Of a DNA stretch of 49,271 nucleotides, positions 1 to 49,271 are shown one piece after another. Position numbers and translations under genes: made by a program. The number at the start of each line of letters is the position of its first letter. Positions within the stretch are counted from its first letter, which is position 1. Where the stretch lies: assembly GCA_017551025.1 (NCBI GenBank), contig JAFZNG010000027.1:1-49271 (forward strand). Direction: 5' to 3'. Under the pieces are notes generated by a model that worked only from the letters and a program-made list of their open reading frames with translations, searched no databases and was not told the origin of the DNA. Source of the DNA: Paludibacteraceae bacterium (GTDB lineage: Bacteria; Bacteroidota; Bacteroidia; Bacteroidales; Paludibacteraceae).

Positions 1-69
1 CTACACCCTACACCCTACACTCTACACCATACACCATACACTAGTCAACCCCCTACACCATACAATAGT
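1..69. repeat. Degenerate heptamer array, ctacacc type
   Basis: Seven-base units such as ctacacc, ctacact and atacacc follow each other, broken once by agtcaacc near 44. The same unit type recurs at 36601-36640 and at the very end of the window (49201-49271). The window therefore starts inside a dispersed repeat. No gene is visible in 1-471 apart from this array, the 11-mer array that follows it and the promoter near 400. Confidence 0.9.
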
Positions 70-131
70 AGGTGATTAGTAGGTTATTAGTAGGTGATTA
101 GTAGGTTATTAGTAGGTGATTAGTAGGTGAT
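66..131. repeat. Six tandem 11-mers
   Basis: Six exact-length 11-base units follow directly on the heptamer array. They read tagtaggtgat or tagtaggttat; the two forms alternate for the first five units and the last is again the gat form. Positions 132-360 after it hold T/C-rich sequence in which I see no gene. Confidence 0.92.
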
Positions 132-365
132 AATGCTTGTGAATCCCATTTTTCCAGACTGTTTCCTTGCTCAAACTCCATTAATTTCCTTCATTTCCCT
201 CACATATTCCTCCGGTTTCCTTCATAATTTCTTCCAAATCTGATCGCATTTTTTCGAAACATTACGAAAGCGTTTTGTTTTCTGTTTTGCTTTCATGTAA
301 TATGCACATATTCAATAAAATCCGCTTCCGTTATGGCTATTCTTTCAAAAATATGTTATAAAACA

Positions 366-408
366 TATACGCGTATACCTTATATTACGCGCGAAAGTAG
401 TATCTTTG
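366..408 (+). promoter_or_regulatory. Promoter of the first secreted protein with a palindrome at -33
   Basis: TATCTTTG at 401-408 matches the Bacteroidota -7 box TAnnTTTG. No TTG lies 20 nt upstream; instead a perfect 12-bp palindrome, tatacgcgtata, occupies 366-377, about where the -33 box would be. The start codon follows at 472, giving a leader of roughly 55 nt. The palindrome could be an operator; that is inference. Confidence 0.6.
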
Positions 409-471
409 CACCGATTTTTATGGCCCTGTGCCATTCAGTAAAGCAAAATAAACACTTAAAATACTAATTGT

Positions 472-3400
472 ATGAAAAAAATTTTCTTATTAATTCCACT
501 TCTAGCCTTCGCGATGATAGCGAATGCAGCGACCACAACAATTTCTGGAGGAAAGAACACTCTTCGGAATGCTCTTAATGCCGCATCCCCTAATGATGTT
601 ATTATTCTTAATGCAGGTACTTACACCGATGACAACTACATTGAGTTCACAAAGAATGTAGAAGTTAAGGCTGCTGATAATGCTACAACAAAGCCTATCA
701 TTCAAGTAACTACGTATATCAAAATTTCCAGTGGGGCAAAGGTGAAGATTTCCGGTATTAAACTGGATGGTAGCCAGCAAGGTTCGCGTGACCAAGTAAT
801 CAGAGCCTATGAGGGAGCCAATAGCTTAGTAATGGAAGATTGTGAAATTACTGCGGGTAAAAAACCGATGTTCCGAGTAGAAAATGGCAAAAATCTTGAT
901 GAACTTACATTGAAAAACTGTACAGTGTACAGTAATACTGATAAAATCGTATCTAACGAAGCTGGTGGTACAATCGGTGCATTAAAAATTGAGGGAAGCG
1001 ATTTCTATACCAATTCCAAAAGTGTAGTATCCAATTCTGGAACGATAACCACAATTAACTTTGACGGTTGTGATTTTACAACTAATAGTGAGACGGTTAT
1101 TTATAGTTCAAGTTCTGCACACGTTGGTTCTTGTACGGTAAATAATAGTTATTTCCATGATTTTGCGCAATGTGCCATAAATATCAACGAAACTACTTCG
1201 TCTGAACTGAAAGTGAAAAATTCAACGTTTGCAAATATTGACGCTCGCGCGTTTCAAGCAGGAATGATTGAGTCCAAGACGGCAGACGGAGTTTATGTGG
1301 TTGACCATTGTACATTCTATAATTGTCAGATCTATAGCACCGATTATGGAACAGTAAAAGTAAACTCTCCAAGTGCAAAGGTGTCTAATTGTATTTTTGC
1401 TATGCCGGTGAGTACAGGTAGCCTAAGAACGGTTTATGTTCCGGATGGTCTTGCAGCAGGCACAAGTGTTACGAACTGTATGATGCACAACTATACGAAA
1501 GATGATAATATCGGTATCCCCTCCCGTTCTGGTCTTACAAAGGCATATTGCTTAGTAGCTAATCCGAACTTTGAAGACGCTGAGAATGGAGACTTCTCAT
1601 TAGTAGGCAACGATTGGACTACAATGACTCTTTCTCCTGCTTGTGGCGCAGCTACCGATGGCCTCGACCTTGGAGATCCGCGTTGGCATAGTAATGGCAC
1701 GTTGCCCGAAACGGGTTTTGCTACCGCTTATACGTGCTCAGGTCAATATGCCCAGATCCACGGAAATATTTGGAAAGATGCTAACAATTACCTATATGGT
1801 GATGGAGGCAATAAGTATGGGAAAGGCTCTAATAGTGCCTACGGTCTTGCAACATGGAGAATACATGCCACAGCTGCTACCGCAATAAAAGTAACATTGG
1901 ACATGGATCCTGATGCGGCTAAAAGCGGACATATATTCAAAGTCGAAATATTTGATGAGAAGGGCGTTAAAATGGGCGAAGTAGAAGAAAGTGGATATTC
2001 GGATTCTAATACCTCAACCCCATTAAATGGATGTATTTATCTCCCCAAGGCAGGAAACTATTCTATAAGACTTAGCAACTCACAGACATATTCCTCTGCT
2101 AAGATTAAAGGTGTTATTCTGGCTCATGAAGGTGGAGCCGTTCAAGCTATACCTAAAACATTAGATGTTAGCGAAGCATGGTATTCTGCTAAGGGTTCGC
2201 GTGCTGATAATAAGATTTCCTTTACATCTTACTCGGATAGTTGGGTTAAGTGGAATATTGCTACTACCGGATCGCATGTAAAAGCTTATGCAGTCACTTT
2301 GACAATTGATAATCCGACAAAATATGGACATAATTTCTCTGTAAGTGTTTATGAGGAAGGAGATGAGGATCATGCTCAAACCGTTAGCGAACACGCATGG
2401 AATGAAACCTTTGATGCTGACGCTCCGTTAGCTCTTCCACTTGGCCTTGTGGCGCTGGAAGGCGGAAAGAACTATGTAGTGAAAGTAACGAATGCAGAAA
2501 GTGGAGCTCAACCGAAGATTGTTAGCGTCGGCTTTGCTCACGCCGGTGGTGCAGTACAAACTATTCCGGGAACATTCGCTATCAATGAAGCATGGTATGG
2601 TAATGGCGGAACTCGTGAGAATGGAACAATAACCTTCAGTAGTTGGAGTTCAGATAACTCATGGATTAAATGGAACGCTGCAACGACCGACGATGTTTTC
2701 TGCAATGTTACTTTGCGTATCAATACCACCAATGACCACCACTTTGCGGTTAATATTTACGAAGAGGGAAATGAAGTAGCGTTTGCTACGCTAAGTGAGA
2801 AATATTCAGAAACAACAGGTGATGCGTTGGATATTGATTTAGGACGTGTTCATATCGCAGCGGACAAGAACTTGCTTGTTAAGGTTACTAACCCTGTCAG
2901 CGGTTCTGCTGCAAAAGTGGTAAGCCTTAAATTTGAAGAAGTAGTTATACCTACTATTGAATTACCCAACACACTCCTTCCTGCAGCTGCAATGTTAAGC
3001 GAAAGAGCTTGGGTGGACACCGAGAGCGCAGTGGATTCTCTCCTCTTTACAGCACGCGGTGATGAGGGATATAACTCCTCTCAGTGGGCTAAATGGAAAA
3101 TCCATGCTGCAACTCGCGGTTATTACAAGTTCACGCTCAATGCGTATACCGGCACTCCGACTAAGGCACAGCAGTATATTCTCTCTGTTCTTTCCAATGA
3201 TGAGAGCGAAGTTATCGCAACTAAGACAACGGCGTGGGATAATGAGAACAATGAATATACAGATTTTGTATGTGCCGAATTACTTCCTGGAAACTACATT
3301 GTAAAAGTGCAAAATCCGGAATGGGGATCAAGAGGTCGTGTTTTGAGTATTGTTCCTTCCTATGATGGAGGTGCATTCACTGAAATCCCGACAGATCCTC

Positions 3401-4452: not shown

Positions 4453-4454
4453 TT

Positions 4455-4489: not shown

Positions 4490-4505
4490 TAAAATTATAC
4501 GAATT

Positions 4506-4709: not shown

Positions 4710-4733
4710 TTGGTGTACAATCTGAAATGCGAT

Positions 4734-9529: not shown

Positions 9530-11017
9530 ATGTCTGATATCTATTCGATCGTTACATCGCGCAATCTGAGTTACGAACAGAAAGTAGTCGCCCTCGCTCA
9601 TGCGGCTGAAGATACCTTGTCGGTGATTCCTATGCCCGAAAAGACCCGCAAATACTTCGAGCAGGGCGTCATCTGTAACCTCAATGAGGGGAATGCCCCC
9701 TACCGTCCGCGGTATATCATGCCCGACTATGAGAAAGCCGTGCGCCAGGGTGTCAAGTTCCTCCAAATGGCGCCTCCCAGCGACCTGGACGAGTTGCTTA
9801 CCTTCCTGCAAGTCCTTTATCGCCACGTACCGTCTATCACGACCTATCCCGTCTTTCTCGGTGACCTGGACCGATTGGTCGAGCCCTTCATCGGCGATCT
9901 CAGCGACGAAGAAGTAAAACGCAAATTGCGCAACTTCTTCATCTATCTCGATCGCACCATTACCGACTCTTTCTGCCATGCCAACCTTGGCCCCGAAGCT
10001 ACGCGTGCCGGACGACTCATCCTGGAAGTTGATCGCGAACTGGAGCAGGCCGTTCCTAACCTTACGCTCAAGTATGATCCCTCGATTACACCCGATGAAT
10101 TCGCCGAAAAAGCGATCTATACCTCGCTCTGCGTAGCCAACCCTGCTATCTGCAACGATGCGCTCAATCGCCAAACCTACGACCGCTACGGTATCTCGTC
10201 GTGCTATAATATCCTGCCTATTGCCGGCGGTAGTTATACGCTCACCCGTCTGGTCCTGCCTCGTCTGGCCGATCTGACCGATGACTTCGAGGAATTCCTT
10301 CATCGCTTGTTGCCGGACGCTATGCTGTGCATGGCCGACTATATGAGCGAGCGCATCCGTTTTATCGTGGAGCAGTCCGGTTTCTTCGAGAGCCACTTCC
10401 TGGCAACCGAAGGCCTCGTCTCGCGCGACCGCTTCGTGGCGATGTTCGGACTGGTAGGACTGGCCGAAGCCGCCAACCACTTTGTACCCGGTAAGAAGTA
10501 CGGCACCGATCCCGAGGCTGATGCGGCTGCAGAGCAAATCATGCAGGTTATCACCGACTTCGTCTCCCGCTACGAATGTCCCTATTGCGAAATAGCCAAC
10601 CATCGTTTGTTGCTGCATGCCCAAGTAGGTATCGACTCCGATCATGGCATCACTTCCGGTATCCGTATTCCGGTAGGCGATGAACCAGAGTCTATCTACG
10701 ACCATTTGCGTCATTCTGCCCGATTCCATCGGTTTATTCCAACCGGTTGTTCGGATATCCTGCCGTTTGACATTACCGGCAAGCAAAACCCTGCAGCCGT
10801 ACTCGATATTGTCAAGGGAGCTTTCTCCCTCGGCCAGAAATATATCGCCTTCTATGCCTCCGACTCCGACTTGGTGCGTATTACCGGTTATCTGGTGAAG
10901 CGCTCGGAGATAGAGAAATGGAATAGTGGCCAAGCCGTACTCCAAAATACCACCCAACTCGGTGCACCAACCTACGCCTCGGCCCACTTAGCCAACCGCA
11001 AAGTGCGAGGTGTCTAA
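9530..11017 (+). CDS. yjjI: YjjI-type glycyl radical enzyme
   Basis: The product (495 residues from the ATG at 9530) resembles the YjjI family (formerly DUF3029) of glycyl radical enzymes, whose reaction is not established. The likely radical site is Gly453 within VRITGYLV, which matches the R[VI].GY pattern near the C-terminus of glycyl radical enzymes. Other landmarks are GISSCYNILPIAGGSYT and CPYCEIANH. The start at 9530 is preferred because the promoter -7 box (9502-9509) lies downstream of the in-frame ATGs at 9479 and 9485. The next gene is its probable activase, 20 bp downstream. Such enzymes work only without oxygen, in keeping with an anaerobe. Confidence 0.88.
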   Translation: MSDIYSIVTSRNLSYEQKVVALAHAAEDTLSVIPMPEKTRKYFEQGVICNLNEGNAPYRPRYIMPDYEKAVRQGVKFLQMAPPSDLDELLTFLQVLYRHVPSITTYPVFLGDLDRLVEPFIGDLSDEEVKRKLRNFFIYLDRTITDSFCHANLGPEATRAGRLILEVDRELEQAVPNLTLKYDPSITPDEFAEKAIYTSLCVANPAICNDALNRQTYDRYGISSCYNILPIAGGSYTLTRLVLPRLADLTDDFEEFLHRLLPDAMLCMADYMSERIRFIVEQSGFFESHFLATEGLVSRDRFVAMFGLVGLAEAANHFVPGKKYGTDPEADAAAEQIMQVITDFVSRYECPYCEIANHRLLLHAQVGIDSDHGITSGIRIPVGDEPESIYDHLRHSARFHRFIPTGCSDILPFDITGKQNPAAVLDIVKGAFSLGQKYIAFYASDSDLVRITGYLVKRSEIEKWNSGQAVLQNTTQLGAPTYASAHLANRKVRGV

Positions 11018-11049
11018 TAGCTAACAGCCCATAGCCAATGGCTAAAGTC
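11015..11049. repeat. Heptamer array containing the yjjI stop and the yjjW start
   Basis: Units taatagc, taacagc, ccatagc, caatggc and taaagtc. The array begins with the TAA stop of the upstream gene and includes the ATG (11038) and first codons of the downstream gene. Confidence 0.85.
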
Positions 11050-14856: not shown

Positions 14857-14888
14857 ACTGAATACTGAACACTGAAAACTGAAAGCTA
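14854..14888. repeat. Heptamer array filling the aldolase to CoA-transferase spacer
   Basis: Units taaactg, aatactg, aacactg, aaaactg, aaagcta. The first unit begins with the TAA stop of the aldolase and the last ends at the first base of the next ATG. Confidence 0.88.
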
Positions 14889-21040: not shown

Positions 21041-22366
21041 ATGAAATTGAAAAGCATCATATTATCGCTCGTAATTCTCGGTCTGACGGCTTGCCGGTTC
21101 GGCCGGGAAGAGGTGATGGATTTTACCCAAGTGACCGGTCTCGACTCTACGATGTTTCGCGTTACGGCTCAGCACGAGATAGATCTTACGTCCGGATTCC
21201 CTACCGACTGCTACCTGCCGGATGGTACCCGCATCAACGAGTATGCGGATGACGACCCGATGGAATCGGGTGTTCAGTCGCGTAAGACCAGTTCGGTCAC
21301 GGGTACGGCTATCGTGCAGAGCCTGCTCGATTGGGGCAATGGCAAAAAGGTGATCGAGGTGGTAGGTACGTATAAGAGTTTTGATACCGATCTGATGCCG
21401 ATTACGCTTTCCGGTAAGGTGATGCTGCCTGTCGGACGCAAACCCAAGCGCATGATCCTGGTTAGCCACTATACCGTCGGCAGCAATGCCGAGGCACCGA
21501 GCAATGCCTTCTCGCTGGAGGGTGTGCTGGTGAAGATGGGTTACGGATTGGTGATCCCTGATTACCTAGGCTATGGTGTGACGGCCGATAAGATCCATCC
21601 CTATCTCTGTATGGATATTACGGCGCTGAACGTCGTGGATATGTGGTTGGCGGTCAAGCCGTGGCTTAAGGCGGTAGGTATGGAACCCGAGCATGAGGAG
21701 ATCAACCTCATGGGCTATTCCCAGGGTGGTGCCACGACGATGGCGGTATTACGACTGATTGAAATGCTGTACAACGATCCGAAGTTGGATTCCTACGTAC
21801 CGGTGCATCGTGTCTTTGCCGGAGGTGGTCCGTACGACGTGAAGGCCACGTATGAACGGTTCGTCAATACCGATACGGCGGGCTATCCGGTGGCGGTACC
21901 GCTGGTGCTGCAGGGCATGATAGCGGGCTACGGGATCGATGTGAAGATGACGGAGATGGTACAACCCTGGTTGTGCGCCAAAGTGGATGAATGGATCAAT
22001 TCCAAGCGCTATTCTACCGGTCAGATCAATACGTTCATCGGTACCAAGGTGACCCACGAACTGCTGACGGCCGAGGCGATGGCACAGACTTCGGATAAGG
22101 TGGCCGAACTGTACAAGGCCATGACCGACAACTCCATCATCGCCTACGATTGGGATCCGAAGGCACCTATCTACATGATGCACTCGATGGATGACGAGAC
22201 GGTGCCGTATACCAATGCCGTGAACGCCAAGAATAGATGGCACAATGCCAATATAGAGTACAACTTCGGCCACTATGGTTCGCACGTGCGGACCTGTCTA
22301 CGCTTTATCTATTCGGTGCAGACCCTGCTGGAGGAAGAAGAAAAAGAAAGGGGGCAGTATGAGTAA
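21041..22366 (+). CDS. Alpha/beta hydrolase lipoprotein, secretory lipase-like
   Basis: I chose the ATG at 21041, preceded by a purine-rich GGAAAGG, rather than the TTG at 21026. It gives a lipoprotein signal with lipobox LTAC. The 441-residue product has the nucleophile elbow GYSQGG (Ser227), a probable catalytic Asp in SMDDETVP (~383) and His in HYGSH (~412), and an N-terminal region with ILVSHYTVGSNAEAPS. This matches the secretory lipase-like subgroup of alpha/beta hydrolases. The substrate could be a lipid or another ester. Its TAA stop at 22364 is the first codon of a heptamer array, and the next gene starts 5 bp before it. Confidence 0.82.
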   Translation: MKLKSIILSLVILGLTACRFGREEVMDFTQVTGLDSTMFRVTAQHEIDLTSGFPTDCYLPDGTRINEYADDDPMESGVQSRKTSSVTGTAIVQSLLDWGNGKKVIEVVGTYKSFDTDLMPITLSGKVMLPVGRKPKRMILVSHYTVGSNAEAPSNAFSLEGVLVKMGYGLVIPDYLGYGVTADKIHPYLCMDITALNVVDMWLAVKPWLKAVGMEPEHEEINLMGYSQGGATTMAVLRLIEMLYNDPKLDSYVPVHRVFAGGGPYDVKATYERFVNTDTAGYPVAVPLVLQGMIAGYGIDVKMTEMVQPWLCAKVDEWINSKRYSTGQINTFIGTKVTHELLTAEAMAQTSDKVAELYKAMTDNSIIAYDWDPKAPIYMMHSMDDETVPYTNAVNAKNRWHNANIEYNFGHYGSHVRTCLRFIYSVQTLLEEEEKERGQYE

Positions 22367-23306
22367 AGGTGAATGGCTAAAGGCGAAAGGCGAAAGGTTA
22401 ATGGTTATCGGTTTCCTTTCGATGCACATTTTTCAATTTTTAATGCCGTCATGTAAGCCCTTGCCTACCTTTGAGACCGACGGCGTGACCATCTCGTCCG
22501 AGACGCGTGTGCTGTCCTCGGGCTTTGTGGAGCAACGTTTCTCTACCGACCGGGATGCGTATTATCTCATCGGTATCGAGCCGATACGTATGGGCTATAA
22601 TCCCCTGAATTCGGAGAACCAGAAGCAGTTTATGACCCTGGAGTTGGATTCTGCGTATGCGGAGTATCTCGATTGGCGCAAGCAATTGCTGCAGCAGGGT
22701 GAGTTTACCATTGCCTCCTTTGCCAGCCATAGTCTGCAGTATGGTGAGACCGACTATTTCTTTACGGGTCTTAAGCCCGGCACCGACTATTGGGTGTATG
22801 CTTTTGTGGTCGATCCCGAGAAGATGCAACCAAAGGGTAAATTACACCTGGTTAGCGTGCGGACCATGGACCAAAGTACCGTGGATGTGCATTTCGAATA
22901 CCGCGTGAAGTCCGGTTGGGATTATATCTATCCGCTCGACTCTACGGGACAGCATATCCAGGCCCATTTCCCTTATGTGCAGGCGCAGGTGGACAGTATG
23001 ACGATCGTGCGGTCGGGTAAGACGCCGCAACAGTTCTTCGCGGATAGCTTGAACTATATGCTCGCGCATCCTCAGGAGGCGGATGTACTCTACGGCGTTT
23101 ACGCACGCGACTTCCGTTACTGGTTGTTCGAAGAGGTAATCATGGGACGGATAGATATTGATGATTGTACGATCTATACAGCTATGGCCGGTTTTGACGG
23201 CCTCATATGCCATCCTACTATCTATAAGTTCCATTTCAGTCCCGAACAGGAATTGTACCGATACGACACCGACTCCACCAATCTGGTGAAGTCGGGTACG
23301 TGGTAA
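22359..23306 (+). CDS. Unknown lipoprotein with a fibronectin III-like region
   Basis: The ATG at 22359 overlaps the upstream stop by 8 bp and follows the purine run GAAAGGGGG; an ATG at 22401 is the alternative. Either gives a hydrophobic segment ending in the lipobox LMPSC. With the first start, the charged n-region (KGEWLKAKGERL) is encoded by heptamer repeat. The rest has a fibronectin-like stretch around LKPGTDYWVYAFVVDPE and is otherwise unrecognised (315 residues). It probably sits in the outer membrane with the upstream hydrolase and barrel protein. The stop TAA at 23304 opens another heptamer array. Confidence 0.75.
   Translation: MSKGEWLKAKGERLMVIGFLSMHIFQFLMPSCKPLPTFETDGVTISSETRVLSSGFVEQRFSTDRDAYYLIGIEPIRMGYNPLNSENQKQFMTLELDSAYAEYLDWRKQLLQQGEFTIASFASHSLQYGETDYFFTGLKPGTDYWVYAFVVDPEKMQPKGKLHLVSVRTMDQSTVDVHFEYRVKSGWDYIYPLDSTGQHIQAHFPYVQAQVDSMTIVRSGKTPQQFFADSLNYMLAHPQEADVLYGVYARDFRYWLFEEVIMGRIDIDDCTIYTAMAGFDGLICHPTIYKFHFSPEQELYRYDTDSTNLVKSGTW
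22364..22405 (+). repeat. Six-unit heptamer array across a gene junction
   Basis: Units taaaggt, gaatggc, taaaggc, gaaaggc, gaaaggt, taatggt. The array starts with the TAA stop of the hydrolase and covers the coding sequence for the n-region of the next lipoprotein. Confidence 0.9.
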
Positions 23307-23345
23307 TGGCGAATGGCTAATGGCTAATGGCTAAAGGCTAAAGTT
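23304..23345. repeat. Six-unit heptamer array between converging genes
   Basis: Units taatggc, gaatggc, taatggc, taatggc, taaaggc, taaagtt. It begins at the TAA of the lipoprotein gene and reaches into the stop codon of the rhomboid gene on the other strand (23344-23346), so it fills the whole spacer. Confidence 0.92.
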
Positions 23346-25267: not shown

Positions 25268-26446
25268 ATGGCCAGCAATTTCATCGATTACGTGAAGATC
25301 TACTGCCGCTCCGGTAAGGGCGGTGCAGGTAGTATGCATTTCCATCGCGCCAAGTATCTGCCTAAGGGCGGACCTGACGGCGGTGACGGCGGTCGCGGGG
25401 GTAGTATTATCCTGCATGGCAACCGTAATCTATGGACCTTGCTCCACCTGAAGTACCAGAAGCATATCATGGCTACCGACGGCGGACGCGGTGGCGAGAG
25501 TCGTTCGTCGGGCAAGGATGGTGAGGATCGTATCATCGAGGTGCCCTGTGGCACGGTAGTCTATGACGGCGATACGGGTGAGTACCTCTGCGAGGTGAAG
25601 GAGCATGACGAGCGTGTCGTGCTGCTCCGTGGCGGTAAGGGGGGCTTAGGTAACTGGAATTTCCGTACGGCCACCAACCAGGCACCGCGTTATGCGCAGC
25701 CGGGTGAACCCTGTCAGGAGCGCAACGTGATCCTGCAGCTGAAGGTGCTGGCCGACGTCGGACTGGTGGGCTTCCCGAATGCCGGTAAGTCGACGCTGCT
25801 GAGCGTGGTCTCGGCGGCCAAACCCGAGATAGCCGACTATCCCTTTACGACCTTGACACCCCAATTGGGTATCGTCAAGTATCGTGACGAGCGATCGTTC
25901 TGCATGGCAGATATCCCCGGTATCATCGAGGGCGCAAGCGAAGGACGCGGACTGGGATTGCGCTTCTTGCGGCATATCGAGCGTAATGCGGTGCTGCTGT
26001 TTATGGTGCCGGCGGCTACGGCAGATATCGTGGCGGAATACCGCATCCTGCTTTCCGAACTGGAGAAATACAATCCCGAATTGCTGACCAAGGCACGCGT
26101 GCTGGCGATCTCCAAGTGCGACGTACCGGCTTATGACGAACAGGGTGAACCCCTGCCCATAGCCAATAGCGAAGAGCTAACGGCCGAATTAGGTATTCCG
26201 GTGGTATGTATCTCGTCCTTTACGGGCGAGGGCATCGACCGGCTCAAGGATATCCTCTGGGAGGAACTATCCAAAGAGCAGAACCAAGTCATCGAGATCA
26301 GCCATGCGCCGATCGATATCAAGGTTATCGAGCGCGACGAAGAACCGGCTCAGGAGGACGAGGAAGAAGAGGGTACGATCTATCTCAACGAGGTAGAGGA
26401 AGAATGGGACCTCTCGAAGTATAAAGGCATCGGTTGGGACGATTAA
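25268..26446 (+). CDS. obgE: GTPase ObgE/CgtA
   Basis: A 392-residue ribosome-associated GTPase. The glycine-rich Obg domain (residues 1-158) has the GGPDGGDGGRGGS and GGKGGLGN segments. G motifs follow: GFPNAGKST (~167), DIPGIIEGA (~213), SKCD (~280, in the G4 position where NKxD is commoner) and a G5 segment near CISSF. A short acidic tail ends the protein. It acts in late large-subunit assembly and growth control. Downstream, a heptamer array leads into the ClC gene. Confidence 0.95.
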   Translation: MASNFIDYVKIYCRSGKGGAGSMHFHRAKYLPKGGPDGGDGGRGGSIILHGNRNLWTLLHLKYQKHIMATDGGRGGESRSSGKDGEDRIIEVPCGTVVYDGDTGEYLCEVKEHDERVVLLRGGKGGLGNWNFRTATNQAPRYAQPGEPCQERNVILQLKVLADVGLVGFPNAGKSTLLSVVSAAKPEIADYPFTTLTPQLGIVKYRDERSFCMADIPGIIEGASEGRGLGLRFLRHIERNAVLLFMVPAATADIVAEYRILLSELEKYNPELLTKARVLAISKCDVPAYDEQGEPLPIANSEELTAELGIPVVCISSFTGEGIDRLKDILWEELSKEQNQVIEISHAPIDIKVIERDEEPAQEDEEEEGTIYLNEVEEEWDLSKYKGIGWDD

Positions 26447-26474
26447 AAATTCAAAATTCAAAATTAAAAATTGA
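26447..26474. repeat. Heptamer array between obgE and the ClC gene
   Basis: Units aaattca, aaattca, aaattaa, aaattga directly follow the TAA of obgE. The last unit contains the TTG start proposed for the next gene. Confidence 0.88.
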
Positions 26475-28663: not shown

Positions 28664-28684
28664 TATAACCTATAACCTATAACC
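28664..28684. repeat. Three exact heptamers, tataacc
   Basis: tataacc occurs three times in a row. The 28621-28860 stretch has no gene; it holds this array and the inverted repeat at 28706-28782. Confidence 0.8.
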
Positions 28685-28705
28685 TTTATTAATTAAAATA
28701 AGGTA

Positions 28706-29827: not shown

Positions 29828-31090
29828 ATGCAATTAAGAAGAGTAGTTATAACTGGTTTAGGCGCGCTCACGCCCGTAGGCAATAGTGCGCGCGAAACGT
29901 GGGAATCATTGGTAGCCGGCAAGAGCGGCATCGCACCCATTACGGCTTTTGATGCCAGTCTGTTTAAGACACAGTTCGCCGGTGAGGTGAAAGGTTTCGA
30001 TCCTACGCCGCTGCTTGACCGCAAGGAGTTGCGCAAGCTCGATCGCTATGCGCAGTTCTCGGTATGCGTGGCTGAGGAGGCTCTGAAAGATAGTGGACTG
30101 GATCTGGAGAAAGAGGATCGTAGCCGCGTAGGTGTCGTTTGGGGAAGCGGTATGGGAGGCCTGCAGTCTATCGAGCAGGAGCTATACCAGTATGCTGAGG
30201 GCGATCGCGTACCTCGCTTCAATCCCTTCATGATCCCGAAGTCGATTCCGAGCATTGCTGCCGGCCAGATATCTATCCTGTTTGGCTTAGGTGGACTGAG
30301 TTTCTCGGTTAGTACGGCTTGTTCGTCGTCTTCGCATGCTGTAGCCTCGGCTTTTGACCAGATTCGTCTGGGCCATGCGGATGTGCTGCTGACCGGTGGT
30401 GCGGATGCAGATATCTCTCCGGCCGGTATTGGCGGTTTCAACTCGCTGCATGCCCTCTCGACGCGCAACGACGACCCGCAGGGTGCCAGCCGTCCGTTCT
30501 CCAAGTCGCGTGACGGATTCGTGCTGAGCGAAGGTGCGGCCTGCCTCGTGATGGAGGATTACGAGCATGCCAAGGCACGTGGCGCACATATCTACGCCGA
30601 GATGGTAGGTGAGGGTATGACCTCGGATGCCTACCATATGACGGCGCCGGATCCGGATGCCAAGGGTGCACAGCGCGTGATGCAGCAAGCCATACAGGAT
30701 GCCGGTATTCGTCCCGAAGATATTGATTATATCAATACCCACGGTACGTCCACGCCGCTCGGCGACCTGGCCGAACTCAAGGCGATCCTCAATGTATTCG
30801 GCGAACATGCGTACGAACTCAACCTCGACTCGACCAAGTCGATGACCGGTCATATGATCGGAGCAACGGGTGCCGTAGAGTCGATGGCTTGTATCATGGC
30901 GCTCAAGGAAGGCGTCGTGCCGCCTACGATCAACCACTCGCCGGACGATGAGGACGAGCAGATTGACTATCGTCTTAATTTCACCTTCGGTAAGGCGCAA
31001 CACCGCCCGCTGCGTTATGCGCTGACCAATACCTTCGGGTTCGGCGGACATAATGCCTGCTTGATCTTCAAGCGCTGGGAAGATAAATAA
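29828..31090 (+). CDS. fabF: 3-oxoacyl-ACP synthase II
   Basis: The ATG at 29828 gives the usual start MQLRRVVITGLGALTPVGN; the longer frame would include the hairpin. The 420-residue product has the active Cys in STACSSSSHA (~164), His in NTHGTSTPLGD (~304) and His in SMTGHMIGATG (~341). It extends acyl-ACP with malonyl-ACP in fatty acid synthesis. Downstream the spacer of 203 bp holds heptamer arrays in opposite senses that may end transcription. Confidence 0.96.
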   Translation: MQLRRVVITGLGALTPVGNSARETWESLVAGKSGIAPITAFDASLFKTQFAGEVKGFDPTPLLDRKELRKLDRYAQFSVCVAEEALKDSGLDLEKEDRSRVGVVWGSGMGGLQSIEQELYQYAEGDRVPRFNPFMIPKSIPSIAAGQISILFGLGGLSFSVSTACSSSSHAVASAFDQIRLGHADVLLTGGADADISPAGIGGFNSLHALSTRNDDPQGASRPFSKSRDGFVLSEGAACLVMEDYEHAKARGAHIYAEMVGEGMTSDAYHMTAPDPDAKGAQRVMQQAIQDAGIRPEDIDYINTHGTSTPLGDLAELKAILNVFGEHAYELNLDSTKSMTGHMIGATGAVESMACIMALKEGVVPPTINHSPDDEDEQIDYRLNFTFGKAQHRPLRYALTNTFGFGGHNACLIFKRWEDK

Positions 31091-31227
31091 GTTGATAGTT
31101 AAAAGTTGAAAGTTTAGAGAAGCGGGAAAGTTTATAAGTTGAAAGTTTTGGAGTTTTTTTTAAAACTAGACGGCTCTCTTCTAGACGACTTCTCTCAACT
31201 CTCAACTCTAAACTAGAATACTAAAAA
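31091..31227. repeat. Heptamer arrays of opposite sense after fabF
   Basis: Units gttgata, gttaaaa, gttgaaa, gtttaga (31091-31118) are followed by complementary-type units ctctcaa, ctctcaa, ctctaaa, ctagaat, actaaaa (31193-31227). The two halves could pair imperfectly, with a T run and ctagacg direct repeats between them. They may act as the fabF terminator. Confidence 0.7.
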
Positions 31228-32565: not shown

Positions 32566-33813
32566 ATTGAGATCATGGCCCCGGTAGGGTGCTGGGAGAG
32601 TCTGGCTGCGGCTATTCAGGCCGGAGCTACGAGCGTCTATTTCGGTATCGAGTACCTGAATATGCGTGCCCGCAGTTCGGCTAACTTTACAACCGCCGAC
32701 CTGCACACCATCGTCGACCGTTGTCGCGAAGCAGGCGTAAAGACCTATCTTACGCTCAATACCGTCATGTATCCCGAGGACCTGAAGTTGATGCGCGAGA
32801 TCGTGGATCATGCCCGTGAGGCCGGTCTGGACGCCATCATTGCCAGCGATATTGCCGTGATGCAGTATGCGCGCGAAGTAGGGGTGGAGGTGCACCTTTC
32901 CACCCAACTCAACATCGCCAATACCGAGGCCCTGCGTTTCTATGCGCAGTTTGCCGATGTTGTGGTGCTGGCGCGCGAACTGAACATGGAACAGGTGGCC
33001 GGCATCTATCGCGATATCTGCGAACAGCATATCTGCGGTCCGAAGGGCGAGTTGCTGCGCATCGAGATGTTCTGCCACGGCGCGTTGTGCATGGCGGTCA
33101 GCGGTAAGTGTTATCTGAGCCTCAACAACCTCGGCCACTCCGCCAATCGTGGTGCATGTATGCAGATTTGTCGTCGCGGCTATACGGTCAAGGACAAGTC
33201 CTCGGACCTGGAACTGGACATCGACAACCAGTATATCATGTCGCCCAAGGATCTGAAGACAATCGGCTTTCTCAACAAGATGCTCGATGCCGGTGTACGC
33301 GTGCTCAAGATCGAAGGCCGCGCCCGTGGACCGGAGTACGTACAGACCGTAGTCGGTTGTTATCGTGAAGCCGTAGAGGCTTGGCAGAAGGGTGAATGGT
33401 CGGACGAGACAAGCGGTATCGATGAGAAGATAGCCCGTTGGGACGAACGTCTGGCACGCGTCTTCAATCGTGGTTTCTGGGACGGTTATTACCAGGGACA
33501 GCGTTTGGGCGAATGGACCCGTCATTACGGCAGTCAGGCTACCCGCAAGAAAGTATATGCCGGTAAGTGCACCAATTTCTTCAAGCAGCTAAGCGTAGCC
33601 GAGTTCTACCTGGAGGCGGTAGAAGCGGTACAGGCCGGTGACGAATTGCTGGTCACGGGTGAGACGACGGGTGCGTACGAACTGACGGCAGAAGGTATGC
33701 GTGACGGTGACGGTCAGCCTGCGGATAAGGTGGGCAAGGGCCAGTACTTCTCGCTCAAGACCGACCGACTGATTCATCGAGGAGACAAACTGTATATAAT
33801 GGCGAAAGGCTAA
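32542..33813 (+). CDS. U32 family peptidase-like protein
   Basis: A 423-residue member of the U32 family. IMAPVGCWESLAAAIQAGA followed by VYFG...LNMRARSSANF is the family start. MFCHGALCMAVSGKCYLS and ANRGACMQICRRGY carry the conserved Cys residues that bind an Fe-S cluster in studied relatives. Members such as TrhP and RlhA hydroxylate RNA rather than cleave proteins; tRNA or rRNA modification is thus as likely as proteolysis. Both ends lie in heptamer arrays: the first codons in one and the last (MAKG and the stop) in another. Confidence 0.88.
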   Translation: MLKTESSNIEIMAPVGCWESLAAAIQAGATSVYFGIEYLNMRARSSANFTTADLHTIVDRCREAGVKTYLTLNTVMYPEDLKLMREIVDHAREAGLDAIIASDIAVMQYAREVGVEVHLSTQLNIANTEALRFYAQFADVVVLARELNMEQVAGIYRDICEQHICGPKGELLRIEMFCHGALCMAVSGKCYLSLNNLGHSANRGACMQICRRGYTVKDKSSDLELDIDNQYIMSPKDLKTIGFLNKMLDAGVRVLKIEGRARGPEYVQTVVGCYREAVEAWQKGEWSDETSGIDEKIARWDERLARVFNRGFWDGYYQGQRLGEWTRHYGSQATRKKVYAGKCTNFFKQLSVAEFYLEAVEAVQAGDELLVTGETTGAYELTAEGMRDGDGQPADKVGKGQYFSLKTDRLIHRGDKLYIMAKG

Positions 33814-33831
33814 TGGCGAATGGCTAAAGTA
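33797..33831. repeat. Heptamer array containing the U32 gene stop
   Basis: Units taatggc, gaaaggc, taatggc, gaatggc, taaagta. The TAA stop at 33811-33813 is the start of the third unit. Confidence 0.88.
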
Positions 33832-36600: not shown

Positions 36601-36640
36601 CCACTCTACACCCTACACCCTACACTCTACACCGTACACT
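36601..36640. repeat. Heptamer array, ctacacc type
   Basis: Units ctctaca, ccctaca, ccctaca, ctctaca, ccgtaca follow the trmD stop. It is the same type as at both ends of the window. Confidence 0.92.
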
Positions 36641-38127: not shown

Positions 38128-38162
38128 AATTTAAAATTAAAAATTACGAATTAAAAATTCCG
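38128..38162. repeat. Heptamer array in the efp leader
   Basis: Units aatttaa, aattaaa, aattacg, aattaaa, aattccg lie between the efp start codon and its promoter. Confidence 0.85.
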
Positions 38163-38874: not shown

Positions 38875-39327
38875 ATGAAACCATTTTCTGAAATGACTAT
38901 TGCGTTGGCAAGCGACCACGCAGGCTATGCGCTCAAGCAAAAGGTACAGCTCTTCCTGGAAGACAATGGTGCCAAAGTGAAGGACTTCGGTTGCTACAAT
39001 ACCGACAGTTGCGACTATCCTGACTATGCACACCCCCTGGCAGAGGCTGTAGAGAAAGGCGACTATGAGTTTGGTGTGATTATCTGCTCTACGGGCAACG
39101 GTATCACCATGACGGCTAACAAGCACCAGGGTATCCGTGCTGCACTTTGCTGGGACACTAAGTTGGCTGAACTGGCTCGCCAGCACAACAATGCCAACGT
39201 GCTCGCCCTGCCGGCTAACTTTATCTCGAGTATCATGGCGCTGGATATCGTGCGTACGTTCTTCCAGACCGATTTCGAGGGTGGCCGCCACGAGCGTCGT
39301 GTCAGTAAAATAGCCATTAGCCATTAA
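38875..39327 (+). CDS. rpiB: Ribose 5-phosphate isomerase B
   Basis: A 150-residue RpiB/LacAB family enzyme of the pentose phosphate pathway. ALASDHAGYALK carries the substrate-binding Asp-His; ICSTGNGITMTANKHQGIRAALC holds the catalytic Cys and the loop. The last residues, KIAISH, and the TAA stop are encoded by the heptamer array at 39312-39346, so the C-terminus has probably been altered by repeat. Confidence 0.93.
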   Translation: MKPFSEMTIALASDHAGYALKQKVQLFLEDNGAKVKDFGCYNTDSCDYPDYAHPLAEAVEKGDYEFGVIICSTGNGITMTANKHQGIRAALCWDTKLAELARQHNNANVLALPANFISSIMALDIVRTFFQTDFEGGRHERRVSKIAISH

Positions 39328-39346
39328 CCATTGGCCATTCGCCATT
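39312..39346. repeat. Heptamer array joining rpiB and the radical SAM gene
   Basis: Units agccatt, agccatt, aaccatt, ggccatt, cgccatt. It contains the rpiB stop (39325-39327) and the proposed TTG start (39331) of the next gene. Confidence 0.92.
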
Positions 39347-40308
39347 CTATACTATCTCGATTCGGCAATGCGCTGCGTTGCTACGCGAGTTATGCACTGA
39401 GTCTCACGGGCTCGGTGCATGTTCGTCATATGCCTGTGTTTGTGTCGGTCGAACCGGCCGCTGTATGCCAATTGCGCTGTCCGGAGTGTCCGGTAGGAAA
39501 GGCGAATGGTGAAGGGCGAAAGGCTAAAGGTGAAAGGCTTATGGGACCGGAAGTGTGGGAACGGGTGCTTCGTGAAGTAAGTCCGTGGGTACATACCATC
39601 CAGTTCTTCTTCCAGGGCGAACCGCTGCTCAATCCTCATCTCGCGCACATGATACGCGATGCGCACGCGAACCGTATATATACTATTCTCTCCACCAATG
39701 CGCAGGCCTTGACACCCGATCTGGCGCACGAACTCATGCGTGCGGGATTGAATCGTATCATCGTATCGATCGACGGTCTTCGACCGGAGAGTTACGGTGC
39801 TTATCGCGTAGGCGGCAACCTGGAGAAGAGTCTGCAGGCGCTCCGCTGGTTACGCGAAGCCAAACAGGCGACGCATGCCCGCTGCACGATAGAGATGCAA
39901 TGTCTGCGTCTACGAACCAACGAGACGGAGTGGCGAGAGATGCAGCATCGCTATCGCGAACTGGGAGCTGACTGTCTGACGCTCAAGACAGCCCAACTCT
40001 ATGATTTCGAGCATGGGCATCCGCTCATGCCATCTGACTTGCGCTATGCGCGTTATGAGCAGACCAAGGACGGCACCTACCGACTGAAGCGTCGCCGCCG
40101 AATAGGTTGTCTACGATTATGGAGCGGCGTGGTCATTACAACGACGGGTGAGGTATTGCCTTGCTGCTATGACAAGCATGCTGATCATGCGCTGGGCAAT
40201 ATCATGCACGAGTCGCTGCAAGCTATTTTCCATAACGAAAAAGCCCGACGCTTTCGCAGTCAGGCTCTTCGATTCTCGCCCGCTATCTGCCACAACTGTT
40301 GGCAGTAA
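39331..40308 (+). CDS. Radical SAM/SPASM domain protein
   Basis: The start is placed at a TTG (39331) because residues 8-34 (ILSRFGNALRCYASYALSL and on) look like the normal N-terminus of this family; the first in-frame ATG (39430) would remove them. The 325-residue product has CxxxCxxC in CQLRCPECP for the radical SAM cluster, and a C-terminal SPASM domain with GEVLPCCYDKHADHALGN and CHNCW for a further cluster. The stretch after CPECPVG (about residues 57-71) is encoded by a heptamer array. It should be a redox enzyme acting on a peptide or other substrate; no target is evident nearby. Confidence 0.85.
   Translation: MAIRHSILSRFGNALRCYASYALSLTGSVHVRHMPVFVSVEPAAVCQLRCPECPVGKANGEGRKAKGERLMGPEVWERVLREVSPWVHTIQFFFQGEPLLNPHLAHMIRDAHANRIYTILSTNAQALTPDLAHELMRAGLNRIIVSIDGLRPESYGAYRVGGNLEKSLQALRWLREAKQATHARCTIEMQCLRLRTNETEWREMQHRYRELGADCLTLKTAQLYDFEHGHPLMPSDLRYARYEQTKDGTYRLKRRRRIGCLRLWSGVVITTTGEVLPCCYDKHADHALGNIMHESLQAIFHNEKARRFRSQALRFSPAICHNCWQ
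39497..39545 (+). repeat. Seven-unit heptamer array inside the radical SAM gene
   Basis: Units gaaaggc, gaatggt, gaagggc, gaaaggc, taaaggt, gaaaggc, ttatggg, in frame. They encode KANGEGRKAKGERLM, just after the cluster-binding Cys motif. Confidence 0.92.
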
Positions 40309-47434: not shown

Positions 47435-47497
47435 CAAAAAATTTTTGATATTTACACATTTTTTTGAAAAAAATTTTCATTTTCGAGCTTTTTTGTG

Positions 47498-47505
47498 TAA
47501 CTTTG
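47498..47505 (+). promoter_or_regulatory. -7 box of panC
   Basis: TAACTTTG matches TAnnTTTG, and the panC ATG is 31 nt downstream. The sequence at the -33 position is TTT in an A/T-rich stretch. Confidence 0.68.
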
Positions 47506-47536
47506 CACGATTTTTTGAACAAAACTATCCGAAAAT

Positions 47537-48394
47537 ATGCAAATTTTAACAACTAAACAGGCTTTGCAGGCCGCCGTGAGCGAATGTCAGCAGGCGGGCA
47601 AAACCATCGGTCTGGTACCTACTATGGGTGCCCTGCATGAGGGACACGCTACGCTCGTTCGTCGTGCCGTGAAGGAGAATGATGTATGCATTGTCAGCGT
47701 CTTTGTCAATCCTACCCAGTTCAACAATCAGGAGGACCTCAAGAAGTACCCCCGTAACCTCGAGCGCGATGCCGAACTGCTTCGTAGTATCGGTGCGGCA
47801 TATGTCTTTGCCCCGACGCCCGAGGAGATGTACTCCGCCGAGGAGATGAATACTACCTTCCAATTCGACTTTGCCGGATTGGACCAAGTCATGGAAGGTA
47901 AGATGCGTCCCGGCCATTTCAACGGCGTGGTACAGGTGGTGAGCCGTCTGTTCTATCTGACGAAACCTCGTCGCGCTTATTTCGGCGAGAAGGATTTCCA
48001 GCAACTGGCTATTATCCACCACATGGTAGAGCGCTCGTCGATGGCAGGCAGTTTTGGTGACCTGGAGATCGTAGATTGTCCGATCGTACGTGAGACTTCG
48101 GGGCTGGCGCTCAGCAGTCGCAACGAACGCCTCTCGGCTCAGGAACGCGAGACGGCACTGGCTATATCGCGTACGCTCTTCGCTTCGCTCGAGTGGTCAA
48201 AGTCGCAGACGGTCAAAGAAGTGCAACAACGCGTGATAGATACGATCAATGCCGTGCCCGGTCTGGAGGTAGAGTACTACGAGATTGTGGACCAATCCTC
48301 ATTGCTCCCGACCGATAGGTTCGACCACGCTATCGGTTGCGTCACGGTCTATTGCGGTCCCGTCCGCCTCATCGATAATATCAAGTACGCGTGA
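47537..48394 (+). CDS. panC: Pantothenate synthetase
   Basis: A 285-residue enzyme that joins pantoate and beta-alanine using ATP, giving pantothenate for coenzyme A. PTMGALHEGHATLVRRA near 29 has the HIGH-like ATP motif, FGEKDFQQ lies near 150, and LSSRNERLS near 190 is the KMSKS-like loop. The last base pairs overlap the GTG start of the next gene by 4 bp (GTGA). Confidence 0.96.
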   Translation: MQILTTKQALQAAVSECQQAGKTIGLVPTMGALHEGHATLVRRAVKENDVCIVSVFVNPTQFNNQEDLKKYPRNLERDAELLRSIGAAYVFAPTPEEMYSAEEMNTTFQFDFAGLDQVMEGKMRPGHFNGVVQVVSRLFYLTKPRRAYFGEKDFQQLAIIHHMVERSSMAGSFGDLEIVDCPIVRETSGLALSSRNERLSAQERETALAISRTLFASLEWSKSQTVKEVQQRVIDTINAVPGLEVEYYEIVDQSSLLPTDRFDHAIGCVTVYCGPVRLIDNIKYA

Positions 48395-49271
48395 CCATCG
48401 TCTTCGACCGACATATTCCCTTCCTGGCGGAGGCGGTGCGAGAGGCTTGGCCCGAGGTGACGGTTCGTCCGATGAATCCGGAGGATATCGACGCGCCGTC
48501 GGTACGTGATGCCGACGTGCTGGTCGTACGAACACGCACCAAGGTCAACGAGGCCTTGTTGGCCGGTTCGCGTGTGCGGCTCGTCTGCACCGCTACGATC
48601 GGTTACGACCATCTGGACACGGCCTGGCTTGAGACGCACGGCATTCGTTGGACGGCCTGCCCCGGGTGTAATGCTCAGGCGGTTTGCGACTATATTGCCG
48701 AGGCCTTGGATGAATCGCTGTATGCGTCCTGTTTCGAACGTAAGGACTTGTCTGACAAGACGATCGGTATTATCGGTGTCGGCCATGTAGGCAGTCTGGT
48801 GGCTTCGATGGCCCGGGCCCGCGGCATGCGCTTGCTGCTTAACGATCCGGCTAAGGGTCTGACCGACAGTTTGGAGCAGATCGCTCGCGAGAGTGATGTG
48901 ATTACCTTTCATGTACCGCTCGACGAGACTACGTATCATATGTGTGATGCATCGTTTTTGAGCCGGTGTAAGCCGAGTGTGTTGCTAATTAATGCCGCCC
49001 GTGGCGGAGTAGTCGATGAGGAGGCCTTGCTTAGGAGCGGAAGGCCGTACGTGCTGGATACTTGGGAGAATGAGCCCCGACTAAATGAAGAAGTGCTGGC
49101 GCATGCCCGCTTGGCCTCGATGCATATAGCGGGGTATTCCCTGGCGGGTAAACTGCGCGCCACGCAGATGTGTCTCGATGCCATTGCCGAGGCCTTTACC
49201 CTTACACCATACACCCTACACTCTACACCCTACACTCTACACTCTACACCCTACACTCTACACCCTACACC
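48391..49271 (+). CDS. pdxB: Erythronate-4-phosphate dehydrogenase, 3' end missing
   Basis: The GTG at 48391 overlaps the panC stop by 4 bp. The product is a D-2-hydroxyacid dehydrogenase of PdxB type: nucleotide-binding GIIGVGHVGSLVA (~128), catalytic Arg in NAARGGVVDEE (~210), Glu in WENEPRLN, and His in MHIAGYSLAGK (~250). It would act in pyridoxal phosphate synthesis. After AEAF (residue 269) the frame runs without a stop into the heptamer array and repeats TPYTLHS until the window ends. The dimerisation domain expected here is not seen, so the gene is either cut by the window edge or truncated by repeat. Confidence 0.85.
   Translation, partial: MTIVFDRHIPFLAEAVREAWPEVTVRPMNPEDIDAPSVRDADVLVVRTRTKVNEALLAGSRVRLVCTATIGYDHLDTAWLETHGIRWTACPGCNAQAVCDYIAEALDESLYASCFERKDLSDKTIGIIGVGHVGSLVASMARARGMRLLLNDPAKGLTDSLEQIARESDVITFHVPLDETTYHMCDASFLSRCKPSVLLINAARGGVVDEEALLRSGRPYVLDTWENEPRLNEEVLAHARLASMHIAGYSLAGKLRATQMCLDAIAEAFTLTPYTLHSTPYTLHSTPYTLHPT
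49201..49271. repeat. Heptamer array at the end of the window
   Basis: About ten units of ctacacc/ctacact type reach the last base. In the pdxB frame three units (21 bp) encode seven residues, TPYTLHS, which repeat three times. The type equals that at 1-69 and 36601-36640. Confidence 0.95.

Follow-up and report, generated by a model that had tools for sequence, protein, structure and literature searches.

Degenerate heptamer arrays built from a small set of recurring words in a Paludibacteraceae genome

The DNA studied here (the window) is a contig of 49,271 bp from a Paludibacteraceae bacterium, and many of its intergenic spacers hold short, imperfect tandem arrays that share a period of 7 bp while differing in sequence. 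This raised the question of whether such arrays exceed chance and, if so, how one period could become dispersed around a genome in so many sequences. A preliminary description of the window had counted at least fifteen arrays, and a period-7 scan likewise returned 15 at a score of at least 9, compared with a mean of 0.1 and a maximum of 1 in 20 dinucleotide shuffles. Of the 45 rows that TRF listed at a low threshold, 19 had period 7. Most of the sites first listed were recovered by the scan. Those at 11015 and 32531 fell under its period-7 threshold, yet are visible by eye; the one at 33797, also visible by eye, reached the threshold at period 14 only, with TRF giving period 7 too.

Spacers totalling 58.6 kb, within 445 kb of the window's genome, contained 60 arrays at a score of at least 14, against 0 in 20 shuffles, which excludes chance. 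The heptamer arrays are real and far above chance, and the proposed excess at period 7 is borne out. Periods 8, 9 and 11 were minor in the same spacers (8, 7 and 9 arrays), periods 4-6, 10, 12 and 13 gave 0 or 1 array each, and the higher counts at periods 14 and 21 (29 and 14) arise because both are multiples of 7. Perfect two-copy duplications in spacers numbered 209 at unit length 7 (8.5 in shuffles), 30 at length 8 (2.0), 13 at length 9 (0.7) and 17 at length 11 (0.1). Tandem 7-nt units beyond chance length, as in the heptanucleotide long simple sequence repeats of bacteria, are therefore present here. Altogether we counted 250 degenerate 7-bp arrays in 1.18 Mb of this genome, which is related to gut MAGs labelled Paludibacteraceae, arrays below the stated scores being dropped. 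Genes were called with a simple codon-usage caller, which places starts approximately and may leave missed genes in long 'spacers'.

The left end of the contig lies inside a CTACACC-type array of the TACACYM word (1..41; period-7 score 25). A weak array read directly at 11015..11043 (+) opens with the stop codon (TAA) of a YjjI-like glycyl radical enzyme gene (9479-11017; Pfam), and the equivalent site in a relative, G129, has a 54-bp array of a different word. An AAACTGA-type array (14857..14884, +; score 15) separates the genes for fructose-bisphosphate aldolase and acetyl-CoA hydrolase/transferase (Pfam). The KAAWGGY word forms one array behind a LIP-family lipase gene (gene 21026-22366; array 22364..22407, +; score 14 at period 7, 11 at period 14), with similar runs at the equivalent place in G129 and a further relative, G060. 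A second KAAWGGY array (23304..23343; score 26) sits between the convergent genes 22401-23306 (+) and rhomboid 23344-24069 (-); G060 has it with altered units, and G129 has no array there. Between obg and a ClC channel gene, which score above and below the NCBIfam cut-off respectively, an RAATTMM array (26442..26472, +; score 18) includes the obg stop and, at its own end, a TTG start. Relatives carry other words in this spacer; the comparison took in 36 loci, some from the same genome twice, and the 11 whose spacers came out strongly negative, through gene overlap or misplaced ends, were not interpreted.

Further along, a TATAACC array (28664..28685; score 15) lies inside a long spacer, an AAAGTTG-type array (31090..31114, +; score 9) directly behind fabF (NCBIfam), and a CTCTCAA array, the reverse complement of the AGTTGAG word, at 31192..31214 (score 13). 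The KAAWGGY array at 33797..33827 (+) shows a 14-bp alternation, scores 14 at period 14 and falls at the end of a U32 peptidase-like gene (32542-33813; NCBIfam PRK15452-like, below cut-off). TACACYM recurs between trmD and the next gene, of the Indigoidine_A family (36602..36639, +; score 19), and RAATTMM just upstream of the minus-strand EF-P gene 37562-38125 (38128..38159; score 10; Pfam). The complement of KAAWGGY covers the 3' end and stop of rpiB (39311..39347; score 18), where G060 has an array too. The genes that arrays border or interrupt in the window are housekeeping genes.

The arrays had been described as filling spacers. This is incomplete, as 85 of the 250 lie inside called open reading frames and 165 do not. 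About one third are in frame within genes, including two in the window. One of these (39497..39538, +), identified by TRF and in translation inside a radical SAM/SPASM gene (39331-40308; Pfam), encodes KANGEGRKAKGER directly after a CPECPVG motif, in a loop that is hypervariable in relatives. The other, a TACACYM array (49203..49271, +; score 41; TRF 21-bp period at 93%), ends a D-2-hydroxyacid dehydrogenase ORF, encoding TLTPYTLHSTPYTLHSTPYTLHPT, and is truncated by the contig end. Words open in all six frames made up 28 coding and 13 non-coding arrays, those open on one strand 37 and 62, and those open in none 20 and 90. A 21-bp higher-order periodicity gave no convincing sign that coding arrays are selected for frame: among arrays of at least 32 bp, lag 21 gave a higher identity than lag 7 in 12 of 23 that are coding and 27 of 67 that lie in spacers.

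It had also been proposed that the period, and not the unit, is conserved. The period is indeed conserved, but a small lexicon of units recurs as well. We found that 184 arrays fall into only 55 unit classes, where random spacer heptamers gave 162 on average, and that the largest class holds 61 of the 184, so the arrays are not independent inventions. That few words recur at unrelated places suggests they were copied around the genome and not made anew at each spot. In a typical word two or three positions are free and the rest form a fixed core. Among 37 TACACCC arrays, the number with any departure at successive unit positions was 4, 4, 2, 2, 2, 24 and 25, and departures were uneven in 8 of 8 words tested (chi-square p 3.2e-7 to 2.5e-75, values that are too small because letters within one array are not independent). 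The commonest word, RAATTMM (AAATTAA-type), accounts for 90 of the 250 arrays. Words were assigned at a fit of 72% of letters in the core/free analysis, where 16 of the 250 arrays fit no word, and at 90% in the lexicon, word-use, length and end-phase analyses, where 44 were classed as 'other'. The lexicon is common to the genus: 67 of 130 arrays from relatives match it, compared with a mean of 12.6 and a maximum of 38 for permuted lexicons (n=200). In a dispersal test the double variant TTACGAATT was weakly over-represented, in 7 arrays against a permuted mean of 2.2 and maximum of 8.

Array lengths are also narrowly distributed. The distribution is not a falling one but has its mode at 30-35 bp; most arrays measure 26-35 bp, and 192 of the 250 measure 26-39 bp, or about four to five units, a preference close to four units. 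In RAATTMM the ends are clearly fixed, with 78 of 90 arrays starting at word position 1 or 2, 80 of 90 ending at positions 4-6 and lengths clustering at 26 and 32-34 bp. AGTTDAR arrays largely share this property; those of TACACYM and KAAWGGY do not. That other periods have the same total length, near 33 bp, was not established: period 11 has no such peak, and in this genome 14 of 48 period-8 arrays form a peak at 32-35 bp and 13 of 48 another at 20-23 bp, with only 3 of 37 at 32-35 bp in relatives.

With respect to genes, arrays occupy 96 of 353 codirectional, 8 of 26 convergent and 5 of 44 divergent spacers. As convergent spacers carry arrays too, a downstream start is not a requirement. Codirectional spacers of 15-60 nt hold an array in 54 of 160 cases. 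Within those of 60-150 nt, 19 of 29 arrays have their first base between -14 and +7 relative to the end of the stop codon, and 5 of 29 finish no more than 15 nt from the called start; in spacers of at least 150 nt no clear upstream or downstream trend was seen (15 arrays). RAATTMM occurs in both orientations, which argues against a translation leader that depends on the A-rich strand being sense.

Comparison with relatives showed both retention and turnover, with arrays present in one species and absent from another and, at one site, one word replaced by another. Of the testable arrays, 8 of 16 are shared with G060 and 3 of 11 with G129; alignments below 72% identity (68% in the array-presence comparison with G129) or with fewer than 300 columns were left out of the sister comparisons. 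Between the sister species loci L150:14038 and L257:9461 we observed one length change of exactly 28 bp, or 4 units, and at L150:15014 the word shifts in register along the array. Word use is uneven, RAATTMM making up 1 of 14 arrays in G060, 0 of 17 in G129 and 1 of 29 in G114. Runs with its AATT core occur at 217 places in the window's genome (1.9 Mb), compared with 27 in G060 (1.3 Mb) and 12 in G129 (2.4 Mb). They also exceed 100 places per strand in 16 of 151 genomes and number 93 in G114, with a reversed control pattern outnumbering them in 18 of the 151. Such runs are thus not private to the window's genome, and a 'burst' rests on the contrast with its closest relatives. In arrays shared with G060 the letters kept were 176 of 192 in cores, 85 of 112 at free positions and 290 of 354 in flanks, in a small sample selected for arrays still periodic (adjusted-score cut 0.88), whose nine rows include one (window 26442) that, judged by eye, is not shared.

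The closest kin of these arrays are the heptamer repeats of Xanthomonas, Nostoc and Beggiatoaceae. As given in the available text of PMC4692102, the GGGAATC / GGGGA(C/T)T heptamers of Xanthomonas and Nostoc have fixed and free positions (GGGANTN), number 183-186 arrays per Xanthomonas genome, there mostly of four units, lie close behind the upstream gene, are few between divergent genes and vary between close species in length and sequence. Our arrays resemble them in the fixed and free unit positions (8 of 8 words), in a length of about four units and in lying nearer the upstream than the downstream gene (here in codirectional spacers of 60-150 nt). The coding share here, 85 of 250, is like that given there for Nostoc (32% not intergenic, 68% intergenic) and unlike that of Xanthomonas (7-11% coding, 89-93% intergenic). 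The same work followed a single G-rich word in each organism and relates the preference for four units to G-quadruplexes. In contrast, at least eight words of similar array length coexist here, the commonest without G-tracts. By inspection, six of the eight, the commonest included, lack a tandem run of three G or C, and TACACCC and GGTTACG have one. As words without G-tracts also form arrays of four to five units, G-quadruplexes are not the general cause of array length.

The statement that no description was established for Bacteroidales is nearly right. Our literature search for heptamer or 7-bp repeats in Bacteroidetes, including Bacteroidales and Paludibacteraceae, found MacGregor 2015 (PMC4679880) alone, which in its available text reports TAACTGA heptamer sets in five Bacteroidetes. 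Paludibacter propionicigenes has two of these sets, and some of the five carry further heptamers alongside. As far as that text goes, the TAACTGA repeats of Beggiatoaceae, cyanobacteria and these Bacteroidetes are, like ours, intergenic arrays that overlap stop codons and have in-ORF copies, and in Cyanothece they show 7-nt indels between close strains. They consist, however, of a single word, and its single-base variants seldom occur as repeats; in the Beggiatoaceae genome the TAACTGA repeats are mostly oriented toward a start codon. Here many degenerate words occur in both orientations, convergent spacers are occupied at a similar rate, and no orientation toward a downstream start was found. 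The exact TAACTGA unit is absent from our 55 unit classes (184 arrays), the nearest being AAAACTG in 2 of the 184. Mrazek et al. 2007, as described in PMC4692102 and PMC4679880, covered long simple sequence repeats of 5-11 nt, found heptanucleotides to be the commonest class in most genomes and proposed slippage; the available parts of these two accounts make no mention of a shared lexicon or of core/free structure. The comparison first drawn with the STRR heptamers of heterocystous cyanobacteria, three tandem heptanucleotides in Calothrix (PMC4692102, available text), is apt as an analogy, both being 7-bp tandem repeats.

What, then, made the arrays? We put at roughly even the chance that they form a genus-wide family of minimal, dispersed repeats, probably selfish or neutral, spread by ectopic copying and slippage and filtered by selection. 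A new array would in most cases begin as a copy, about 30 bp long, of part of an existing array placed elsewhere in the genome, possibly through template switching or through repair synthesis that a short core match primes. Arrays would afterwards lengthen, shorten and homogenise through slippage in 7-bp steps. Selection may act mostly as a filter, so that copies persist right after stop codons, where about 30 bp are tolerated, and within loops of proteins if the reading frame remains open. A purely neutral model does not predict that arrays shared with G060 keep their core letters better. The species compared yielded no case of copying from a donor array to a new site, and no clear target-site duplication was found at the arrays, only a weak excess (5-mers, 10 of 245 against 4.5 shuffled, maximum 10; 6-mers, 4 against 1.1, maximum 5; 8-mers, 2 against 0.1, maximum 1). 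Of other candidate causes, a reverse transcriptase was rejected, with no RVT_1 match in this genome (controls positive in 3 of 14), and two MutS_V matches rule against loss of mismatch repair.

A purely local origin, in which polymerase slippage with a preferred 7-nt step makes arrays independently at each site and they are kept in neutral spacers, is ascribed to Mrazek 2007 in the available texts of PMC4679880 and PMC4692102. The predominance of period 7, which extends to two-copy duplications, speaks for it. The preliminary description had named slippage or an amplification process that copies 7 bases at a time; the 28-bp sister difference and the in-register change of words support slippage in 7-bp steps. 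Slippage alone nevertheless fails on a lexicon with fixed cores common to unlinked loci, on word use uneven between close species, on a narrow range of lengths with its mode at 30-35 bp and on the fixed end phases of the commonest word, and we regard it as realistic but unlikely. We find it quite unlikely that the arrays are selected regulatory elements, each word being a site for an RNA- or DNA-binding protein, a translation leader or a multi-frame stop (compare MacGregor 2015). The better keeping of core letters fits such a role, as do the frequent occupation of short codirectional spacers and the stop codon contained in many words, which a 7-nt period places in all frames. Convergent spacers are, however, hit about as often, though few; in codirectional spacers of 60-150 nt arrays sit mostly at the upstream stop and not the downstream start; different words occupy the one obg-clc spacer; a third of arrays are coding; and many words would require many proteins.

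If a known transposase of short elements (REP/RAYT or MITE-like) mobilised the arrays, this would account for their dispersal, roughly fixed size, mostly intergenic position and unevenness between close species. Yet Y1_Tnp matches occur in 11 of 25 genus genomes, with one weak match in the window's own and none in 14 of 25 at E <= 0.001, and G026 and G031, which have strong matches, hold 0 and 1 arrays in 40-kb samples. The distribution of Y1 transposase/RAYT across genomes does not follow the arrays, and together with the lack of clear target duplication this makes such mobilisation very unlikely. That assembly or binning created the arrays is hardly credible. Although 3 of 37 contig ends lie in arrays, including both ends of the window (2 of the 37 read N), arrays are present in named MAGs from several independent projects, as orthologues in sister species and in frame within coding sequence, and are not an artefact of one assembly.

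In 2007 heptanucleotides were found over-represented among repeats in many bacterial genomes, and polymerase contact length was hypothesised as the reason (as told in the available text of PMC4692102). A genus with many coexisting, mutually replacing words, also in frame inside conserved enzymes, makes the process separable from any single sequence, speaks against a general cause in G-quadruplexes or in one binding protein, and renders the copying hypothesis testable by strain sequencing. It is possible, and we suggest it tentatively, that the heptamer arrays found here and in Xanthomonas, cyanobacteria and Beggiatoaceae belong to a single class, that of self-propagating 'word elements' of about 30 bp. 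Their cores would prime array-to-array copying by repair or polymerase activity, staying fixed for annealing while free letters drift, and words would burst like transposon families. If so, the four-to-five-unit length would be a property of the copying step and not of G-quadruplexes. At a practical level, heptamer arrays help account for several features of such genomes: spacers that are hypervariable, predicted proteins with odd seven-residue peptide repeats, and some of the contig breaks.

The preliminary description reported degenerate 7-bp tandem arrays dispersed across the window, and a period-7 scan bore this out, finding 15 arrays there against a mean of 0.1 across 20 shuffles. The excess of this period over random spacers held beyond the window. 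In 445 kb of the genome that contains it (1,937,726 bp in 36 contigs, 95% complete, the window being the entire 49,271 bp contig C22) spacers held 60 arrays at a stricter threshold and none in 20 shuffles; periods 8, 9 and 11 gave 8, 7 and 9 arrays in the same 445 kb. Perfect two-copy tandem duplications of length 7 numbered 209 in spacers versus 8.5 in shuffles. Overall we located 250 arrays in 1,182,073 bp of this genome, or roughly one every 4.7 kb. The relatives, which were species representatives rather than strains, had lower counts at that threshold: 14 in 152 kb of the sister species G060, 17 in 140 kb of G129 and 29 in 300 kb of G114. Loci L054-L098 held 66 arrays in 786 kb, L099-L133 held 14 in 623 kb, and five other families of the order gave 1 in 200 kb. 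Named loci were assigned to the genus by similarity of ribose-5-phosphate isomerase B (rpiB), for which the closest named records come from MAGs of rumen and gut origin that carry the label Paludibacteraceae or Bacteroidales. It is from the labels of these relatives that a position of the window's genome near Paludibacteraceae is inferred.

Seven is not the sole preferred step, since period 11 ranked second among short periods in the sampled relatives, with 74 arrays to 139 for period 7. The window itself carries period-11 arrays at 66-131 (TAGTAGGTGAT, six times) and 28394-28422 (CGATGTTGGTT), and at 32486-32550 a 23-bp tandem repeat with GACCGCTTCGCTGA inside. We counted GACCGCTNCGCTGA 13 times in the 1.18 Mb sampled from this genome and 14 times across loci L055-L098; it may therefore be a further dispersed repeat of the genus.

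The period had been thought conserved but not the unit. The first part stands; the second does not, as 184 arrays fell into 55 unit classes versus 162 in random draws. Eight words cover 234 of the 250 arrays at 72% fit, and their degenerate forms 206 at 90% fit. Within a word some positions are fixed, a core, and others free: in the TACACCC arrays (n = 37) each of positions 1-5 shows departures in 2-4 arrays, position 6 in 24 and position 7 in 25. This lexicon was fitted by 67 of 130 arrays from other members of the genus, compared to a mean of 12.6 and a maximum of 38 for permuted lexicons. None of the 14 arrays of L099-L133 fitted it, but the permuted mean there was 0.7, so this small set is little informative.

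Whole-genome counts covered the genus, where an obg-clc query (clc being the ClC channel gene) matched in 147 of 150 further genomes (148 of 151 including this one). Four AATT cores at 7-bp spacing are present in 134 of the 151; with overlapping places counted separately, and the pattern being its own reverse complement, this genome has 217 places per strand versus 20 for the reversed pattern. Counts range from 0 to 257 and exceed 100 in 16 genomes. In 18 of 151 the reversed pattern is the more frequent, and it may represent a word in its own right. Four TACAC cores are found in 82 of the 151 genomes; this genome has them at 98 places, overlaps again counted separately, and has none of the reversed pattern, a control that elsewhere is zero or small (at most 13). 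The use of words is uneven. RAATTMM, the commonest word, accounts for 90 of 250 arrays in this genome versus 1/14, 0/17 and 1/29 in G060, G129 and G114, a comparison resting on 14-29 arrays per relative. The AATT-core counts (217 here, then 27, 12 and 93) agree with these shares for the two nearest relatives, G060 and G129, and less for G114.

Of 184 arrays located in 845,634 bp, 116 lay in spacers and 59 in coding sequence, with 9 unplaced; gene starts are approximate throughout these counts. Among spacers of at least 15 nt, an array was present in 96 of 353 between codirectional genes, 8 of 26 between convergent genes and 5 of 44 between divergent genes. Of the arrays in codirectional spacers, 50 of 54 began -14 to +7 nt from the stop codon's end where the spacer measured 15-60 nt, and 19 of 29 did so where it measured 60-150 nt. 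In the latter class 5 of 29 arrays ended no more than 15 nt from the called start. No clear positional trend emerged for the 15 arrays in longer codirectional spacers. Array length has its mode at 30-35 bp and falls steeply above 36. RAATTMM arrays, whose lengths concentrate at 26 and 32-34, open on word position 1 or 2 in 78/90 and close on position 4, 5 or 6 in 80/90; they therefore start and finish on the core. AGTTDAR arrays behave similarly (start at position 1 in 12/19, end at position 2 in 15/19), and the ends of TACACYM and KAAWGGY arrays are less regular. The obg-clc spacer has arrays at 11 of 36 loci, with differing words and often spanning stop codon to start. The final repeat unit of the window's array at 26442-26472 contains the TTG start codon of the ClC gene. 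Locus L161 has obg and clc overlapping, stop on start, as TGATG, and the array may have grown from an overlap of this kind. Contigs end inside TACACYM arrays at window 1-41 and 49203-49271 and at 11-94 of locus L277. These make up 3 of the 37 contig ends inspected (two of the 37 read N), and long TACACYM arrays may break assemblies. The stretch 472-7748 of the window encodes two large proteins with DUF5123 domains, one of which also has a DUF4957 domain; the other adds domains of purple acid phosphatase and metallophosphatase. The G+C content is reduced where this stretch starts (0.40-0.44 in 1-4000).

Within called open reading frames we found 85 of the 250 arrays, encoding peptides such as HTPYTIHHTP, KSKVESRKSK and LKIKNEKLKI. 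In the window, a radical SAM/SPASM gene (39331-40308) encodes KANGEGRKAKGER directly after its CPECPVG motif, and a D-2-hydroxyacid dehydrogenase reading frame ends in a TPYTLHS run (49203-49271) where the contig terminates. Words free of stops in all six frames numbered 28 in coding versus 13 in non-coding arrays, those open on one strand 37 versus 62, and those with stops in every frame 20 versus 90. Coding arrays thus look like the survivors of a filter.

Between this genome and G060, whose DNA is ~80% identical, 8 of 16 testable arrays were shared and 7 of 12 G060 arrays had a counterpart; for G129 the values were 3 of 11 and 3 of 8. One array of this genome (L199:1020) also occurs in G060, and G129 lacks it, showing a clean gap of 36 bp. 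Within a gene, at L198:16173, this genome, G129 and G060 each carry a distinct seven-letter word, and eight residues are missing in two more distant relatives (L059, L238). In shared arrays, a small sample selected for those still periodic, 176/192 core, 85/112 free and 290/354 flanking letters were kept; the better-kept core leaves room for a selected function. Separately, at L287 ~3300-3390 and L246 ~6040-6130 the array stretch is nearly identical between this genome and G129, the rest being ~79% identical, and G060 has a shorter form; transfer or recombination is possible.

Slippage in 7-bp steps, as first proposed, accounts for the gain and loss of units, an exact four-unit length difference being seen at one shared site. 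Slippage alone is insufficient, because the words form a shared lexicon with fixed cores, because there is a preferred size, with fixed ends in the commonest word, and because word use is uneven between close species. We therefore favour, at about even confidence, a combination in which short array pieces would be copied ectopically, arrays would gain or lose units by slippage in steps of seven, and selection would act as a filter on their survival. No donor, no enzyme and no clear target duplication for such copying was demonstrated. The Xanthomonas and Nostoc repeats (PMC4692102) resemble these arrays in their degenerate unit, their place behind the upstream gene and their scarcity between divergent genes, and the Xanthomonas repeats share the four-unit preference, which the authors attribute to G-quadruplexes. 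Unlike that G-quadruplex-linked word, the commonest word here has no G-tract and yet a similar length, which argues against G-quadruplexes as the general cause. TAACTGA arrays are described in five Bacteroidetes (MacGregor 2015, PMC4679880); that paper also notes that such repeats place stop codons in all frames and may overlap gene ends. The literature searched, which contained few subscription papers, yielded no description of the many-word system, its genus-wide core and free structure, in-frame copies at such scale or word replacement.

In the window (39331-40308) and in many of the loci L054-L100, where it is encoded downstream of rpiB, the radical SAM/SPASM enzyme has a hypervariable stretch directly after the cysteine motif. 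This stretch is unrelated in sequence between species, and some versions carry 7-bp or other repeats, making it a natural recorder of repeat insertion.
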